Assembly (NCBI GenBank): GCA_903933715.1
Contig: CAIZLD010000068.1
Location: 1 to 56,550 of the forward strand
From: an uncultured Spartobacteria bacterium
Lineage (GTDB): Bacteria; Verrucomicrobiota; Verrucomicrobiia; Chthoniobacterales; Chthoniobacteraceae
Reading direction: 5' to 3'
Length of the DNA: 56,550 nucleotides
Shown here: positions 1 through 56,550 of the stretch, one piece after another
Layout of the letters: each line of letters opens with the position of its first letter
How positions within the stretch are numbered: the first letter of the stretch is position 1
Program-made: the position numbers and the translations under genes
Notes under the pieces: generated by a model
Seen by the model: only the letters and a program-made list of their open reading frames with translations
Databases searched by the model: none
What the model was told of the DNA's origin: nothing

Positions 1-149
1 GGTTGAGCGTTAGCGACACCACCGGATGAGGTGTTGGAAGAATTCACCCCAAAGAGGTGGCAGAGCATCGCCTCGTTTTCTGCCACCCCTTTTGGGGTGA
101 GACGCAGTTTTGCATTGAACCGGTGGTGTCGCTAACGCTCAACCACCGG
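1..149. repeat. REP/BIME-like palindromic intergenic element
   Basis: Bases 1-25 and 120-144 form a perfect 25-bp inverted repeat that includes GCGTTAGCGACACC. Nested inside, 44-63 and 80-100 form a second near-perfect palindrome (CACCCCAAA against TTTTGGGGTG), differing by one substitution and one extra base. The right arm carries its own small hairpin: CCGGTGGT at 120-127 pairs perfectly with ACCACCGG at 142-149 around a 14-nt loop. This arrangement resembles two REP units in opposite orientation (a BIME) or a small MITE. The window begins at the element, so its left boundary is not visible. No coding sequence overlaps it convincingly. Confidence 0.75.
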
Positions 150-7877: not shown

Positions 7878-7986
7878 GAGTAAGAAAGAGTCTAGCGCGG
7901 AAGCCGGGCGGCGGCAAAGGTGGAAATCGAGTTTACGCGAGGAACAGGAAAAGCCTCACGCAGGGGTGTTCACGAATGAATTTGTT

Positions 7987-8070
7987 TCTCGCAAAGACGC
8001 AAAGGCGCAAAGAAAAGGCAAAGAGAGCCACGCATACACCTTCTTTGCGGCTTTGCGCCTTTGCGTGAGA
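7987..8070. repeat. Palindromic (CGCAAAGN)3 intergenic repeat
   Basis: The left arm (7987-8012) is TCTC followed by three tandem octamers of the form CGCAAAG plus one base. The right arm (8043-8070) is its inverse (CTTTGCGG, CTTTGCGC, CTTTGCGTGAGA) with a 2-nt offset. The arms could form a long stem around a spacer containing AAAAGGCAAAGAG. It lies between pepF and plsC, both transcribed leftward. Related copies occur at 56362-56550 and, in partial form, at 15012-15072, 26749-26764, 49942-49964 and about 2037-2077. Confidence 0.8.
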
Positions 8071-8087
8071 TTAAAAAGGCACGGTCG

Positions 8088-25224: not shown

Positions 25225-26610
25225 ATGAATCACGGCATCCAACACATTCATTTCCTGGGCATTTGCGGCACCGCGATGGGCTCCGTCGCCGCCGCCTTGC
25301 AGGAACGCGGCTTCACTGTCACCGGCTCCGATGAAAACGTCTACCCACCGATGTCCACTTTCCTGGAGCAAAAAGGGGTCAAAATCACCGCCGGCTATTG
25401 CCCCGAAAACCTCCCCGAAAAGGCGCAACTCATCGTCGTCGGCAACGCCATGAAGCGCGGGAACCCGGAGGTCGAGGCCGTCCTCAACCGCAAGCTCTAC
25501 TATCTTTCCCTCCCTGAGACCCTCAAAGAATTTTTCCTTCGGGGCCGCCACAATCTGGTCGTCACCGGCACCCACGGCAAAACCACCACGACCTCGCTGC
25601 TGACCTGGATCTTTGAATCGGCGGGGCTGGAGCCAAGCTACTTGATTGGCGGGATTCCCAAGAATCTTGGCCAGGGAGCCCGGTTTCGCGATTCCAAATA
25701 CGTGGTTCTGGAAGGCGACGAGTACGACACCGCCTTTTTTGACAAGCGGAGCAAGTTCGTCCATTACATGCCGGAGTTGGTCATCGTGAACAATATCGAG
25801 TTCGATCACGCCGATATTTTCAACAATCTCGACGAAATCAAACTGAGCTTCCGGCGCATGCTCAATATCGTCCCCGGCAACGGGATGGTTCTGCTCAACG
25901 CCGACGATCCCAACTGCCTGGAAGTCGGCTCCACCTGCCCCGCGCCGGTGCTGGAGGTCGGTTTTTCCGAGACCGCCGGTAACCGGATCGTTGACGTTCA
26001 CTATCATCCGCACGGCTCCGAGTTCACCCTTTTCGGGACACGTTTTGCCCTTTCATTAGTCGGCGAATACAACGTTCGCAATGCCGCCATGGCCGTCAGC
26101 GCCGCCCATTTTTACGGCATCCCGCTCCCGGTGATCCAGCAAGCGCTCGCGAGCTTCGAAGGGGTATTGCGCCGGCAGGAAGTGCGCGGCGAAGTGCGCG
26201 GAATCAAGGTGATCGACGACTTTGGGCATCACCCCACCGCCATCCGCCAGACCTTAACGGGGCTGCGCCACCAATACCCCGGCGCACGACTCTGGGCGAT
26301 TTTTGAGCCGCGCTCCAACACCACCCGTCGCGCGGTGTTTCAACACCAGCTCCCCGCCGCCTTCGAGCAGGCCGACGGCGTCATCTTTTCCAAAGTCGCG
26401 AGGCTCGACCAGATCGCCGAAGCCGAGCGGCTTAACCCCGAGCAGGTCATCTCCGACATCGCGGCGACCGGCAGACCGGCTTTTTACGAGCCCGGCGCAA
26501 CCCAGATCATTGAGCGTTTAAAACCGCTGGTCCAAAGCGGCGACGTGATCGTTGTGTTCAGCAACGGCGGGTTTGACGGCATCCACGCGCGGCTGCTGGC
26601 GGAGTTGTAG
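25225..26610 (+). CDS. mpl: UDP-N-acetylmuramate:L-Ala-gamma-D-Glu-meso-DAP ligase
   Basis: The 461-residue Mur ligase has HIHFLGICGTAMGSVAAALQ at its N-terminus, GTHGKTTTTSLLTW as P-loop, EGDEYDTAFFDKRSKF and IDDFGHHPTAIRQTL. The EYDTAFFDKRSKF stretch separates Mpl from MurC. Mpl reattaches recovered murein tripeptide to UDP-MurNAc in peptidoglycan recycling. The start has no Shine-Dalgarno sequence; the leader is CTTCTCC-rich. It is followed by a hairpin-rich 175-bp gap. Confidence 0.94.
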   Translation: MNHGIQHIHFLGICGTAMGSVAAALQERGFTVTGSDENVYPPMSTFLEQKGVKITAGYCPENLPEKAQLIVVGNAMKRGNPEVEAVLNRKLYYLSLPETLKEFFLRGRHNLVVTGTHGKTTTTSLLTWIFESAGLEPSYLIGGIPKNLGQGARFRDSKYVVLEGDEYDTAFFDKRSKFVHYMPELVIVNNIEFDHADIFNNLDEIKLSFRRMLNIVPGNGMVLLNADDPNCLEVGSTCPAPVLEVGFSETAGNRIVDVHYHPHGSEFTLFGTRFALSLVGEYNVRNAAMAVSAAHFYGIPLPVIQQALASFEGVLRRQEVRGEVRGIKVIDDFGHHPTAIRQTLTGLRHQYPGARLWAIFEPRSNTTRRAVFQHQLPAAFEQADGVIFSKVARLDQIAEAERLNPEQVISDIAATGRPAFYEPGATQIIERLKPLVQSGDVIVVFSNGGFDGIHARLLAEL

Positions 26611-26689: not shown

Positions 26690-26764
26690 GCGAAGTGCAA
26701 CTTCGCCAGAGAATGCGTTCCCAAGTAAAACTTGGGAACGAGAAAAAGGCGCAAAGAGCGCAAA
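26690..26764. repeat. Double-hairpin repeat plus CGCAAAG remnant (locus 1)
   Basis: The first hairpin is at 26690-26706: stem GCGAAGT/ACTTCGC with a 3-nt loop. After 9 nt the second is at 26716-26740: perfect 11-bp stem CGTTCCCAAGT/ACTTGGGAACG with loop AAA. This is followed by AGAAAAAGGCGCAAAGAGCG, a remnant of the octamer repeat. The element sits between the convergent mpl and hydrolase genes and could act as a bidirectional terminator. Copies with compensatory changes lie at 49988-50116 and 56415-56465. The rest of the 175-bp gap shows nothing. Confidence 0.85.
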
Positions 26765-26785: not shown

Positions 26786-27784
26786 TCACCCTTTGACCAC
26801 GTGCAAATCCGGGTTGAGTTGCTCGTTCAAAACCGCCACCAGCGCATCGGGATCTTCCATCGGGGCCAGCGCCCCGACGCGCGGGATCACCACGAGATTC
26901 CCATGGGGCACGATCCCCAGCAGCCGCTCGCCCATTTCCAGCGACGGCTGACCCGGCTCGCTCCCCCAAAGGAGCGTCACCGGCAGCTTGAGCAGCCCCA
27001 TGCGCGTTTCGAGATCGAAATTCAATCGCCCGCTATGGAAATTGCGAATCGCGTATTCCGCCCCGCTTTGCTGGGCACAGGTGGTATAAACCTCCACCGC
27101 CTCTTCGCTCAGGCGCGACGCGTCCACAAACCCGGCGGCCAGCCAGTTCCGGACAGCCTCACGGCTCGACTGATAGTTGCGATATAAAAACCGTTGGAGC
27201 GATTCCACATGGGCCGCAACCCGCGTGCTCCGGCGCAACCGACCAAAGCCAAATTCACGTTTGCCGGTGGGCATGTGCAAAATGAGCCGCCCGACCAATT
27301 CCGGATGCTGGCTGGCCAGATAAACGCAAAACCCGGCCCCCAGGCCGCTTCCCACCACGATCGGTTTCTGTTCTCCGCAAGTTTCGCGGATCAACTCGGC
27401 CAGCATCTGGGCGTAATCGGCGGCCGAAAACCGGGCCGAGGGGCGTTGGGATTCTCCAAACCCGATCAAGTCCGGCGCGACGACACGGAAGCGCCCGGCG
27501 AACTCGGGATACACTTTGGCCCATTCGAAAGAGGACCCCCCCAGACAAACGCTATGCACAAAAATCAACGGCTGGCCGGAACCGGATTCGTGATAAATAA
27601 CATGCCCCAAGGTCGTGTGCTGGACTTTGGTGGCGAAGATTGCCGGTGAGATCGTTTCCGGCATCGGCGACTTCCCGGCAGGCCAAAACGCATATTTCAA
27701 CGCCAGCACGAAGGCGCCAGCCAGCCCCGCACCGAGTCCGACACCCACGAGTTTTTTGTTTTCCTTGCGGAACATTCTCTTCAT
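26786..27784 (-). CDS. Membrane-anchored alpha/beta-hydrolase-fold protein, catalytic triad incomplete
   Basis: The 332-residue protein has an N-terminal membrane helix (about 12-34) and an alpha/beta hydrolase fold. PDLIGFGESQRP and the elbow VGSGLGAG (S146) are recognisable. The usual acid position reads LLWGSEPGQ, and the usual catalytic His position (GHxxHxEDP) reads VGALAPMEDP, so the His is Ala. It may be an inactive or atypical hydrolase. The start at 27784 is one of the few here with a strong Shine-Dalgarno sequence (GGGGGAGA, about 8 nt before the ATG). It follows the hybrid kinase gene by 110 bp. Confidence 0.8.
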   Translation of the reverse strand: MKRMFRKENKKLVGVGLGAGLAGAFVLALKYAFWPAGKSPMPETISPAIFATKVQHTTLGHVIYHESGSGQPLIFVHSVCLGGSSFEWAKVYPEFAGRFRVVAPDLIGFGESQRPSARFSAADYAQMLAELIRETCGEQKPIVVGSGLGAGFCVYLASQHPELVGRLILHMPTGKREFGFGRLRRSTRVAAHVESLQRFLYRNYQSSREAVRNWLAAGFVDASRLSEEAVEVYTTCAQQSGAEYAIRNFHSGRLNFDLETRMGLLKLPVTLLWGSEPGQPSLEMGERLLGIVPHGNLVVIPRVGALAPMEDPDALVAVLNEQLNPDLHVVKG

Positions 27785-27894
27785 AGCATTTTCTCCCCCA
27801 GACAAATCTCCGGGGGGCGGTCCAGGAGAGAGTTTTCGATCACGCGGAAGATTATGCGCCACAGCCGTCCACCCTGCAAGAAGGGAGCGCAAGG

Positions 27895-33983: not shown

Positions 33984-34940
33984 ATGAAACTCATCATCCA
34001 AATTCCATGCTTCAATGAAGAGGCAACCCTGGGAATCGCCCTCGCGGCGCTGCCCCGCACCTTGCCCGGCGTGGACAAGGTTGAATGGCTGATCATTAAC
34101 GACGGCTCCTCCGATCGGACGACGGAAGTGGCCCGCCAACACGGCGTGGATCACATTGTGGAGCTGGGCTCCCATCTGGGGCTCGCCAAGGGGTTCATGG
34201 CCGGGCTCGATGCCTGCCTCAAGCTCGGGGCCGACATCATCGTCAATACCGATGCTGACAACCAGTATTGCGCGGACGACATTCCCAAATTGCTGGAGCC
34301 GATTTTTTGCGGCCAGGCGCAAATCGTCGTGGGCGAGCGGCCCATCGCCGAGGTGACTCATTTTTCGCCGCTGAAAAAAGCGCTCCAGAAGCTCGGCAGC
34401 CTGGCCGTTCGGCTGGCCAGCGGGACGGAAGTGGCCGATGCGCCAAGCGGTTTCCGCGCCATCAGCCGCGACGCCGCCATGCAGTTGAATGTTTTCAACA
34501 AATACACCTACACGCTCGAAACGATTATCCAGGCCGGGCGCAAAAATATCCCGATCCGGTCCGTGCCGATCCGCACCAACGGTTATCTGCGCCCCTCGCG
34601 TCTCATGAAGAGCATGCGGGCGTATGTGCAACGGTCGATCCTGACCATCCTGCGCATTTTCATGACCTACCGCCCCATGTGGTTCTTCAATGTGCTTGGG
34701 ACGGTCCCCGCGACGCTGGGCGTGATCCTGGGCCTGCGCTGGTGCTACCTGTTTTTTGAAGACCCCACCCGCGGTCATGTGCCGAGCTTGATCCTCGCGG
34801 CCATCCTCACGCTCATTGGCGTGCAGCTCTGGGTTTTCGGGCTGATCGCCGACGTGATCGCCGTGAACCGGGCGCTGCTGGAAGATATCCAGCTCCGGGC
34901 GCGCCGGCAGGAATACGGCTCCTCCACTGAGAAAAAATAA
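33984..34940 (+). CDS. GT2 glycosyltransferase, probable polyprenyl-phosphate sugar transferase
   Basis: The 318-residue protein has a GT-A catalytic domain (IIQIPCFNEEATLG, INDGSSDRT, DAD at 90-92 in VNTDADNQY). Two predicted C-terminal membrane helices follow (about 230-250 and 265-290). This layout matches dolichol/undecaprenyl-phosphate hexosyltransferases such as ArnC, GtrB and DPM1, which load a sugar on a lipid carrier. It opens a five-gene series; its TAA overlaps the next ATG (TAATG). The donor sugar is unknown. The start is SD-less. Confidence 0.88.
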   Translation: MKLIIQIPCFNEEATLGIALAALPRTLPGVDKVEWLIINDGSSDRTTEVARQHGVDHIVELGSHLGLAKGFMAGLDACLKLGADIIVNTDADNQYCADDIPKLLEPIFCGQAQIVVGERPIAEVTHFSPLKKALQKLGSLAVRLASGTEVADAPSGFRAISRDAAMQLNVFNKYTYTLETIIQAGRKNIPIRSVPIRTNGYLRPSRLMKSMRAYVQRSILTILRIFMTYRPMWFFNVLGTVPATLGVILGLRWCYLFFEDPTRGHVPSLILAAILTLIGVQLWVFGLIADVIAVNRALLEDIQLRARRQEYGSSTEKK

Positions 34941-49941: not shown

Positions 49942-50116
49942 TCTCACGCAAAGACGCAAAGAGAGAGGAAGCCAGGAATGATCACCTCGTTCCCAAACTC
50001 TATTTGGGAACGCACTTGAAGCCGCAACTCCATTGCGGCAACTGGCTCTTTGCGCGACTCGCTCCCGGCAATCGAGTTGCCGGAACAATGGCGTTCCCAA
50101 ATGGAGTCTGGGAACG
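49942..50116. repeat. Octamer repeat plus two head-to-head double-hairpin repeats (locus 2)
   Basis: Bases 49942-49964 contain TCTCACGCAAAGACGCAAAG. Four hairpins follow: 49988-50012 (CGTTCCCAAA/TTTGGGAACG), 50021-50039 (GCCGCAA/TTGCGGC), 50065-50083 (CCGGCAA/TTGCCGG) and 50092-50116 (CGTTCCCA/TGGGAACG). The first pair read on the minus strand has the same order and spacing as the second pair on the plus strand, so two composite units face each other. They lie between argH and the NUDIX gene, both transcribed leftward. The 222-bp gap holds no gene. Confidence 0.85.
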
Positions 50117-50154
50117 AGGAAAACGAGGAAAAATGGGGAAATCGCATGGCTTCC

Positions 50155-55089: not shown

Positions 55090-55162
55090 CCCCTGAAGCA
55101 GCGCGGTGGCAAAGACGCTTGTTTTTGCCGGGCGCGGCGCACATAGTAGCTCGCTTTTTTTA

Positions 55163-56347
55163 ATGGACTCCCACCGTCACATCGCCCAACACGTCCGGCC
55201 CATCCCAAAATCCGGGATCCGCGACTTCTTTGAAGTCGTACAGAGCATGACCGACGTCATTTCGCTCGGCATCGGCGAACCCGACTTCGACACCCCGTGG
55301 CATATCCGCGAAGCCGCCATCTACTCACTTGAGCAAGGGCATACCGGTTACACCTCCAACCTCGGCCAGCCCAGCCTGCGCAACGCCATCGCCAAATACG
55401 TCGAGGGCCGTTTCGAGATCGGTTACGATCCCCAACAAGAGATCATCGTCACCGTCGGCGTTTCCGAAGCGATCGACCTCGCCCTGCGCGCCTTGCTCAA
55501 CCCCGGTGATGAAGTCATTTATCACGAGCCGTGCTACGTCAGTTACAACCCGAGCGTTGTCCTCGCCCACGGCGTCCCGGTGGCCGTTGCCACCCGCCCG
55601 GAAGACGGGTTCCGCGTCACCGCCGAGGCGATCGCCGCCAAAATCACGCCGCGTTCCCGCGTCCTGATGCTCAATTTCCCCACCAACCCGACCGGCGGCA
55701 CGCAAACCCGTGAGGAGTTGGAAAAAATCGCGCAACTCTGCATCCGGCACGACTTGGTCGTTCTCTCGGACGAAATTTACAGCGAGCTGACCTACGACGG
55801 GCAGACCCACGTCTCGATTGCCTCCCTCCCCGGCATGCAGGAACGCACCATCTTCCTCCACGGCTTTTCCAAGGCTTTCGCCATGACGGGATTCCGAATC
55901 GGCTACGCCTGCGGTCCGGTTCCCCTCATCGATGCGATGATGAAAATTCATCAATACGGGATTCTCTGCGCCGGAACCACCGCCCAGGATGCCGCGCTTG
56001 AGGCGCTTGAAAACGGCGCGCCCGCCGTGGAAACCATGCGCGCCAAATACGAAGCGCGACGCAATTACATCGTGCGCAGCCTGAACGAAATCGGGCTCGA
56101 CTGCATCAACCCGCACGGCGCGTTCTACGCTTTCCCGAGCATCCAAAACACCGGGTTGAGCAGCAAAGAGTTCTCGCTGGGGTTGCTCAAGGAGAAGAAA
56201 GTCGCAGTCGTCCCCGGCACCGCCTTCGGAGCCAGCGGCGAAGGATTTGTGCGTTGCAGCTATTCCACCAGCCTGGACGAGATCAAGACCGCCATGAAGC
56301 GCATCGACGAGTTCTGCCGGGAACTGCGCGGAAAACATATGTCGTAA
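55163..56347 (+). CDS. Class I/II pyridoxal-phosphate aminotransferase (PatA/AspC-like)
   Basis: The 394-residue protein shows the fold-type I landmarks: ISLGIGEPDFDTP, NFPTNPTGGT (N175), SDEIYSELTYDG (D203, Y206) and the PLP lysine K237 in GFSKAFAMTGFRIGY. The sequence is close to the PatA/aspartate-type branch that transaminates aspartate, aromatic amino acids or N-acetyl-L,L-diaminopimelate; specificity is open. The start at 55163 is preferred to 55106, which would prepend a basic segment. It lies 73 nt after the kinase gene, probably its own or a shared transcript. Confidence 0.92.
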   Translation: MDSHRHIAQHVRPIPKSGIRDFFEVVQSMTDVISLGIGEPDFDTPWHIREAAIYSLEQGHTGYTSNLGQPSLRNAIAKYVEGRFEIGYDPQQEIIVTVGVSEAIDLALRALLNPGDEVIYHEPCYVSYNPSVVLAHGVPVAVATRPEDGFRVTAEAIAAKITPRSRVLMLNFPTNPTGGTQTREELEKIAQLCIRHDLVVLSDEIYSELTYDGQTHVSIASLPGMQERTIFLHGFSKAFAMTGFRIGYACGPVPLIDAMMKIHQYGILCAGTTAQDAALEALENGAPAVETMRAKYEARRNYIVRSLNEIGLDCINPHGAFYAFPSIQNTGLSSKEFSLGLLKEKKVAVVPGTAFGASGEGFVRCSYSTSLDEIKTAMKRIDEFCRELRGKHMS

Positions 56348-56361
56348 CGCCGGGGAATTAT

Positions 56362-56550
56362 TCTCTCGCAAAGACGCAAAGCCGCAAAGAAAGGCAAAGA
56401 GTTTTTTTGCCTCTCGTGCCCAAGTTGAACTTGGGCACGCACTCCCAGGCGAAGTTGCACTTCGCAAGCGTTGATTTCAGCCCCCGCCTTGAACCAAGAG
56501 GAGTTCACAATTCCGAAAATCCCTTTGCGCCTTTGCGTCTTTGCGAGAGA
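56362..56550. repeat. Composite palindromic element: octamer arms enclosing a double hairpin (locus 3)
   Basis: The outer arms 56362-56389 and 56523-56550 are a 28-bp inverted repeat with a single mismatch, each made of TCTCT plus CGCAAAG octamers. The right arm reaches the window end. Inside lie a hairpin at 56415-56439 (CGTGCCCAAGT/ACTTGGGCACG, loop TGA) and one at 56449-56465 (GCGAAGT/ACTTCGC). On the minus strand this is the same order as at 26690-26740. The stretch 56466-56522 shows nothing recognisable. The whole block has the size and structure of a small non-autonomous mobile element. Confidence 0.85.

Follow-up and report, generated by a model that had tools for sequence, protein, structure and literature searches.

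Two-hairpin repeats of a Spartobacteria genome are probably REP/REPIN-type elements associated with a RAYT transposase gene

The window (the whole 56,550-nt stretch of DNA analysed, from an uncultured Spartobacteria bacterium) contains four copies of a repeat in which a small hairpin is followed by a larger one, and paired base differences among the copies raise the question of what kind of element would keep such a fold. The first-pass annotation located the four copies, both stems of each and their common layout accurately (Table 1), and when the window is scanned with a covariance model derived from 30 units, exactly these four come out as full units, with E values of 1e-14 to 5e-13. Under DNA folding parameters each copy is predicted to form two hairpins, and each 59-60 nt copy has a much stronger fold than its dinucleotide shuffles (z of -4.5 to -8.1, equalled by 0 of 200 shuffles); the inverted pair consisting of copies 2 and 3 is predicted to form one long folded structure (z of -10.4). 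Copy 1 lies between convergent genes (25225-26610, plus strand, and 26786-27892, minus strand), and copy 4 lies downstream of a plus-strand gene (55106-56347). A second dispersed repeat, TCTCGCAAAGACGCAAAGGCGCAAAG, is present in the window at 7978-8015, 8041-8074, 49942-49962, 56358-56391 and 56523-56550; it often forms inverted pairs, is often next to hairpin units, and has many more copies in the genus. The contig starts with a perfect 25-bp inverted repeat (window positions 1-25 and 120-144).

Table 1. Positions of the hairpins and associated features of the four units in the window.
Feature	Position	Strand	Remarks
Copy 1, small hairpin GCGAAGT-GCA-ACTTCGC	26690..26706	+	Loop class NCA
Copy 1, spacer CAGAGAATG	26707..26715	+	
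Copy 1, large hairpin CGTTCCCAAGT-AAA-ACTTGGGAACG	26716..26740	+	Invariant AG at 26741-26742
Copy 2, large hairpin, left half of REPIN	49988..50012	-	CT at 49986-49987
Copy 2, small hairpin GCCGCAA..TTGCGGC	50021..50039	-	AT-type apex
Copy 3, small hairpin CCGGCAA..TTGCCGG	50065..50083	+	AT-type apex
Copy 3, large hairpin CGTTCCCAAATGGAGTCTGGGAACG, right half of REPIN	50092..50116	+	AG at 50117-50118
Whole REPIN, CT-[large]-[small]-25 nt-[small]-[large]-AG	49986..50118	no strand	Covariance model and fold
Copy 4, large hairpin CGTGCCCAAGT-TCA-ACTTGGGCACG (minus-strand reading)	56415..56439	-	Compensatory T:A to G:C
Copy 4, small hairpin GCGAAGT..ACTTCGC	56449..56465	-	

A unit consists, in order, of a small hairpin with a 5-7 bp stem, a spacer with the consensus nGACAAGTG, a large hairpin with an 11-bp stem, and AG. 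The spacer length of 8-9 nt proposed from the window is accurate for the window copies and too narrow for the genome as a whole, in which spacers are mostly 8-11 nt long. The core of the large hairpin is CGTTCCCAA, variants of which, including CGTTACTAA, CGTTCCGAA and CATTCCTAA, remain paired; the T:A to G:C switch first noticed in the large stem is real, and is just one among many such switches. Of the large-hairpin sites, 109 of 109 are bordered on one side by AG, read as CT from the opposite strand, and the AGA or AGG reported to follow the large hairpin proved general, each of the 105 flanks read having A or G past AG; beyond this purine, conservation ends within a few bases. No run of T follows the hairpins on the 3' side, and the canonical GT[AG]G tag is absent from the 5' foot of the hairpin, where the spacer consensus is found instead. 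Mismatches at the large stem's second pair are A-C and those at the innermost pairs T-G; strand preferences drawn from G-T versus A-C mismatches conflict, and no strand is claimed.

The paired base changes by which the repeat was recognised are far in excess of chance and of controls. In 139 distinct units, which were found with a structural model and are therefore biased towards structure, 97.7% of cells are paired, two-sided compensatory changes affect 16 of 17 stem pairs and number 357 (versus 96 in shuffles), and slid structures collapse. A set of 30 units drawn from several phyla has 97.9% of its cells paired and shows two-sided changes at 10 of 18 pairs. An unbiased check was made on 92 non-redundant, orientable sites selected solely by the outermost 9 bp of the large stem: the unselected next stem pair is Watson-Crick at 91 of them (T-A at 49, G-C at 32, A-T at 10), and a small hairpin with a stem of at least 5 bp is directly upstream of 74, compared with 2% of shuffled flanks. 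The original proposal that a folded form is maintained, in RNA or in single-stranded DNA, thus stands insofar as covariation indicates that the fold matters, and finds no evidence on the side of an RNA function; single-stranded DNA is the better supported reading, because the units have neither an Rfam match nor a T-run after the hairpins.

The motif is distributed genome-wide and across phyla rather than being confined to the window. The pattern CGTTCCCAAN{4,16}TTGGGAACG occurs 108 times in the 2.8-Mb genome (0 in a reversed control), and the covariance model gives about 150 matches, a figure that equals the number of candidates scored and so may be a floor, and of which the weakest include tandem copies without the small hairpin. 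Neighbouring units less than 200 nt apart comprise 49 inverted pairs with the large hairpins outward, 4 pairs in the opposite arrangement and 10 in tandem, and whole pairs of about 150-170 bp recur at separate sites as subfamilies of 20 and 15 members; together these indicate a REPIN plan, with lengths here of mostly 133-173 bp. According to genes called by codon usage, the 46 clusters with both neighbours known are flanked by convergent genes in 27 cases, codirectional genes in 17 and divergent genes in 2, compared with 2, 15 and 2, respectively, for window gaps of at least 60 bp; convergent or 3'-end placement is a published habit of REPs (PMC3733652). Comparison of 49988-50116 across the genus demonstrated no empty site or fresh insertion: in G001 the gene pair is kept and the gap also has a decayed unit, and the same region of G003 and G004 is rearranged or cut. 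Several contigs of G000 (C7, C9, C20, C32, C36, C51, C59, C63, C66, C74 and C77) start within a few hundred bases of a unit, and therefore the repeat to which a name is given here appears to break the assemblies of these genomes. Large hairpins without a small partner are present within direct repeats of about 61 bp (GCCCGAAGAACCCACCRAAATYAGA + CGTTCCCAAGTGCAACTTGGGAACG + AGG), captured in another repeat, at L091, L094 and L111 (contigs C17, C18 and C37 of G000), with 4 to 5 tandem copies in L094 and L111 and single copies at L139 and L154.

Inspection of the DNA between two inverted copies on another contig (C1) revealed a single-copy gene (34205-34732, minus strand) framed by these units, with an ORF of 176-192 aa that matches NCBIfam NF047646 (REP-associated tyrosine transposase) at 113.5 bits against a cut-off of 80 (E = 7e-33). 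Its match to Pfam Y1_Tnp is below the cut-off (E = 0.012), so that a search with Pfam only misses it. A profile of four relatives of this RAYT matches PDB 4ER8, the E. coli TnpA_REP (E = 2.6e-8), which is also the best match of the predicted fold of a relative (E = 1.7e-4; mean pLDDT of the model 65.9). Alignment of the RAYTs reveals HUH, WQ and Y-x-x-NP motifs, in the forms THFH/NHFH, WQ and Y[LIV]H[HNQE]NP, the last being present in the complete sequences aligned. By these sequence and fold criteria the gene is identified as a RAYT/TnpA_REP, of the HUH/Y1 single-strand endonuclease family. A Pfam Y1_Tnp search detected three other Y1 transposase genes in the genome (L016, L017 and L018), two of which are flanked by inverted palindromes of their own, CCTGGGGCAACGCCCCAGG and CCACCGGCTTCAGCCGGTGG.

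Close homologues of the RAYT in Verrucomicrobia, Hydrogenedentes and KSB1 are likewise flanked by inverted units, less tidily in G019 and G037, and none of the other Y1 genes tested has units beside it. Inverted units are present at the ends of Hydrogenedentes homologues that are at least 54% identical across most of their length, two of which (L230 and L237) have one degenerate end each; the covariance model matches 38 sites in the Hydrogenedentes genome and 30 in the KSB1 genome. Among 57 relatives, repeats are present in each of the nine genomes that contain the gene (E below 1e-60), whereas only three of the 48 without it carry them, the other 45 having none or a single site; the three exceptions are incomplete assemblies (73-84%). 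Neither the gene nor the repeats were found in 387 other genomes of the phylum sample, and no relatives were found in viral contigs.

The four copies are thus very probably non-autonomous REP elements, mostly in REPINs, spread by a RAYT/TnpA_REP, since the RAYT gene is framed by units and the gene and the repeats co-occur. The initial impression that the layout belongs to no named family does not hold up, the gene that points to REP/REPIN-type elements lying beyond the window on another contig. REPs and REPINs are small repeats whose spread is believed to proceed through folded single-stranded DNA that a RAYT cuts, and the units could be mobilised likewise: in single-stranded DNA, such as that of lagging-strand replication, each unit would fold into two hairpins; the RAYT would bind these, reading their loops as group-3 TnpA_REPs do; and it would cut beside the large hairpin, the CT|CG edge being the probable position, with the REPIN being copied elsewhere. 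The CT/AG edge is the likeliest candidate for the cut site, because C|T is where TnpA_REP enzymes cleave (PMC8266576). As the two loops within a unit mostly agree, a single protein surface, present twice or used successively, would most likely read both hairpins. For the GT and AT subtypes found in the window, matching RAYTs occur only in relatives; the window copies are therefore probably long established, their own transposase having been lost or missed by the assembly.

The loops fall mainly into two classes, NCA and NGA. Among 105 units of this genome with both apices typed, all 25 GT small apices pair with GT large apices, and 76 of the non-GT small apices pair among non-GT types. In 13 of 15 RAYT lineages the small and large hairpins agree in the last two bases of their loops (permutation mean 6.5, p = 0.0004), and in 8 they agree over the entire loop (permutation mean 2.0, p = 0.00003), with permutations that ignore the relatedness of lineages; the loops do not match in G015 and L231. 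A further rule, that the two hairpins have exactly the same innermost stem pairs, was considered and given up, as 7 of 9 lineages at first became 9 of 15 with more lineages, and the concordance of loop class (13 of 15) holds better. Loop matching fits the requirement of group-3 TnpA_REP enzymes for specific loop bases (PMC8266576), and partly reflects shared descent. Concerted evolution of both loops is suggested and not proven, because the RAYT tree is weakly supported at depth and only about two independent switches of loop class are visible. It is possible, and put forward tentatively, that a cross-phylum clade of RAYTs reads both loops with the same protein surface, such that specificities switch together and REP subfamilies co-diversify with their transposases like locks and keys.

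Other explanations account for parts of these observations. Perfect palindromes are known to self-correct, and a mutational process operating inside the hairpin, be it template switching or gene conversion, could keep the stems perfect in place of selection for protein binding and homogenise both loops as well, which would suit the match of small and large loops even in detail, as at both ends of L229; it leaves unexplained why the spacer is conserved, why the CT/AG edge is invariant, why several phyla share the double-hairpin layout and why the repeats are tied to RAYT, and is unlikely to be the whole explanation, though such correction may act in addition to a RAYT. That the units are instead structured RNA, preserved because it stabilises, terminates or directs the processing of mRNA at gene 3' ends, is quite improbable: REPs are known to affect mRNA ends and most intergenic copies are downstream of genes (27 convergent and 17 codirectional versus 2 divergent), but the same placement is expected from mere avoidance of promoters and genes, no Rfam family scores above its gathering threshold, the hairpins are followed by AG and a purine with no T-run, the units occur on either strand and mostly as inverted pairs, and the presence of repeats tracks RAYT.

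The inverted units at both ends of the gene could also be terminal inverted repeats of an active gene-carrying transposon (a TIRtron rather than a REPtron), the dispersed copies being decayed ends or MITEs. 'Double palindromic TIRs' are drawn for some TIRYT genes in PMC3733652; against this, one gene copy versus about 150 units is the pattern of REPs, and the GGGGWSAS motif which that paper gives for TIRs was not noticed among the flanks read. This possibility is doubtful, and its difference from a REPtron is largely one of naming. Lastly, the units might be ordinary IS200/IS605 ends mobilised by the other three Y1 transposases of the genome, which are at least present; no unit adjoins L016-L018, and two of these genes have the different palindromes mentioned above, making this idea scarcely credible.

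As REP/REPIN-type elements, the repeats resemble those of E. coli, Pseudomonas and Stenotrophomonas with their RAYTs in being high-copy extragenic palindromes in inverted pairs, with sequence subfamilies, 3'-end and convergent location, and one RAYT gene framed by the same repeats; unlike these, they have two different hairpins per unit rather than one, and unlike canonical REPs they lack a GT[AG]G tag, are bounded by CT...AG and form REPINs mostly in the size range given above. REP, REPIN, RAYT and 'double palindromic TIR' beside RAYT-like genes have been described (PMC2817692, PMC3116915, PMC3733652, PMC6006769). The RAYTs may be related to subclass 2.6 of TnpA_Y1 (Quentin et al. 2018, PMC6006769; Bertels group 5), with whose HUH, WQ and YIH[QN]NP-type motifs theirs agree in kind; that subclass has a similar length of about 179 aa, and its flanking 'atypical secondary structures', without GT[AG]G, also recur in the genome. 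According to that paper, subclass 2.6 is mostly from Bacteroidetes, unlike the Verrucomicrobia, Hydrogenedentes and KSB1 considered here, and has the motif NH[LIV]H, where NHFH or THFH is present here; the text consulted makes no mention of a two-hairpin plan. Double palindromic repeats beside RAYT-like genes were shown in 2013 (Di Nocera et al., PMC3733652), where the inverted double palindromes of TIRYT genes (TIRtrons) likewise include some that form repeat families; these TIR families are called moderately abundant, their sequences appear in a figure only, and the text contains no match to CGTTCCC. A predicted-fold match also relates the RAYT to IS200/IS605 transposases (IS608, ISDra2), Y1 HUH enzymes of similar fold that recognise single-strand hairpins. 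IS200/IS605 elements have multiple mobile gene-carrying copies with LE/RE hairpins on one strand, often with tnpB; the present system differs from them in its one gene copy, in the inverted orientation of its end units and in repeats that far outnumber the gene. A literature search, with most subscription journals outside its coverage, found no paper giving the repeat sequence or the paired-loop rule; what is new here is the combination of two hairpins per unit, no GT[AG]G, a CT...AG edge and usually matching loops. The REP/RAYT partnership, studied mainly in gamma-proteobacteria, is extended to Verrucomicrobia, Hydrogenedentes and KSB1, where it takes a form with two hairpins and no GTAG, and the many natural loop variants with a matching transposase adjacent make recognition directly testable.

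The two-hairpin unit seems to represent a single branch within a wider and little-described set, because a sister clade of RAYTs has single hairpins and more distant RAYTs have palindromes of another type. The sister clade (L214 and L239-L242, from Salinivibrio and Hydrogenedentes) is flanked by single hairpins of the TATGCATTCCCACGC..GCGTGGGAACGAG type, with a single TATGCATTCCCACG hairpin in Salinivibrio (L239-L241), and these share the outer stem and the AG edge with the two-hairpin units. The more distant RAYTs (L040, L244, L245, L247 and L248) are flanked by GGTC..GACC palindromes, which are apparently double in L040 / Longilinea.
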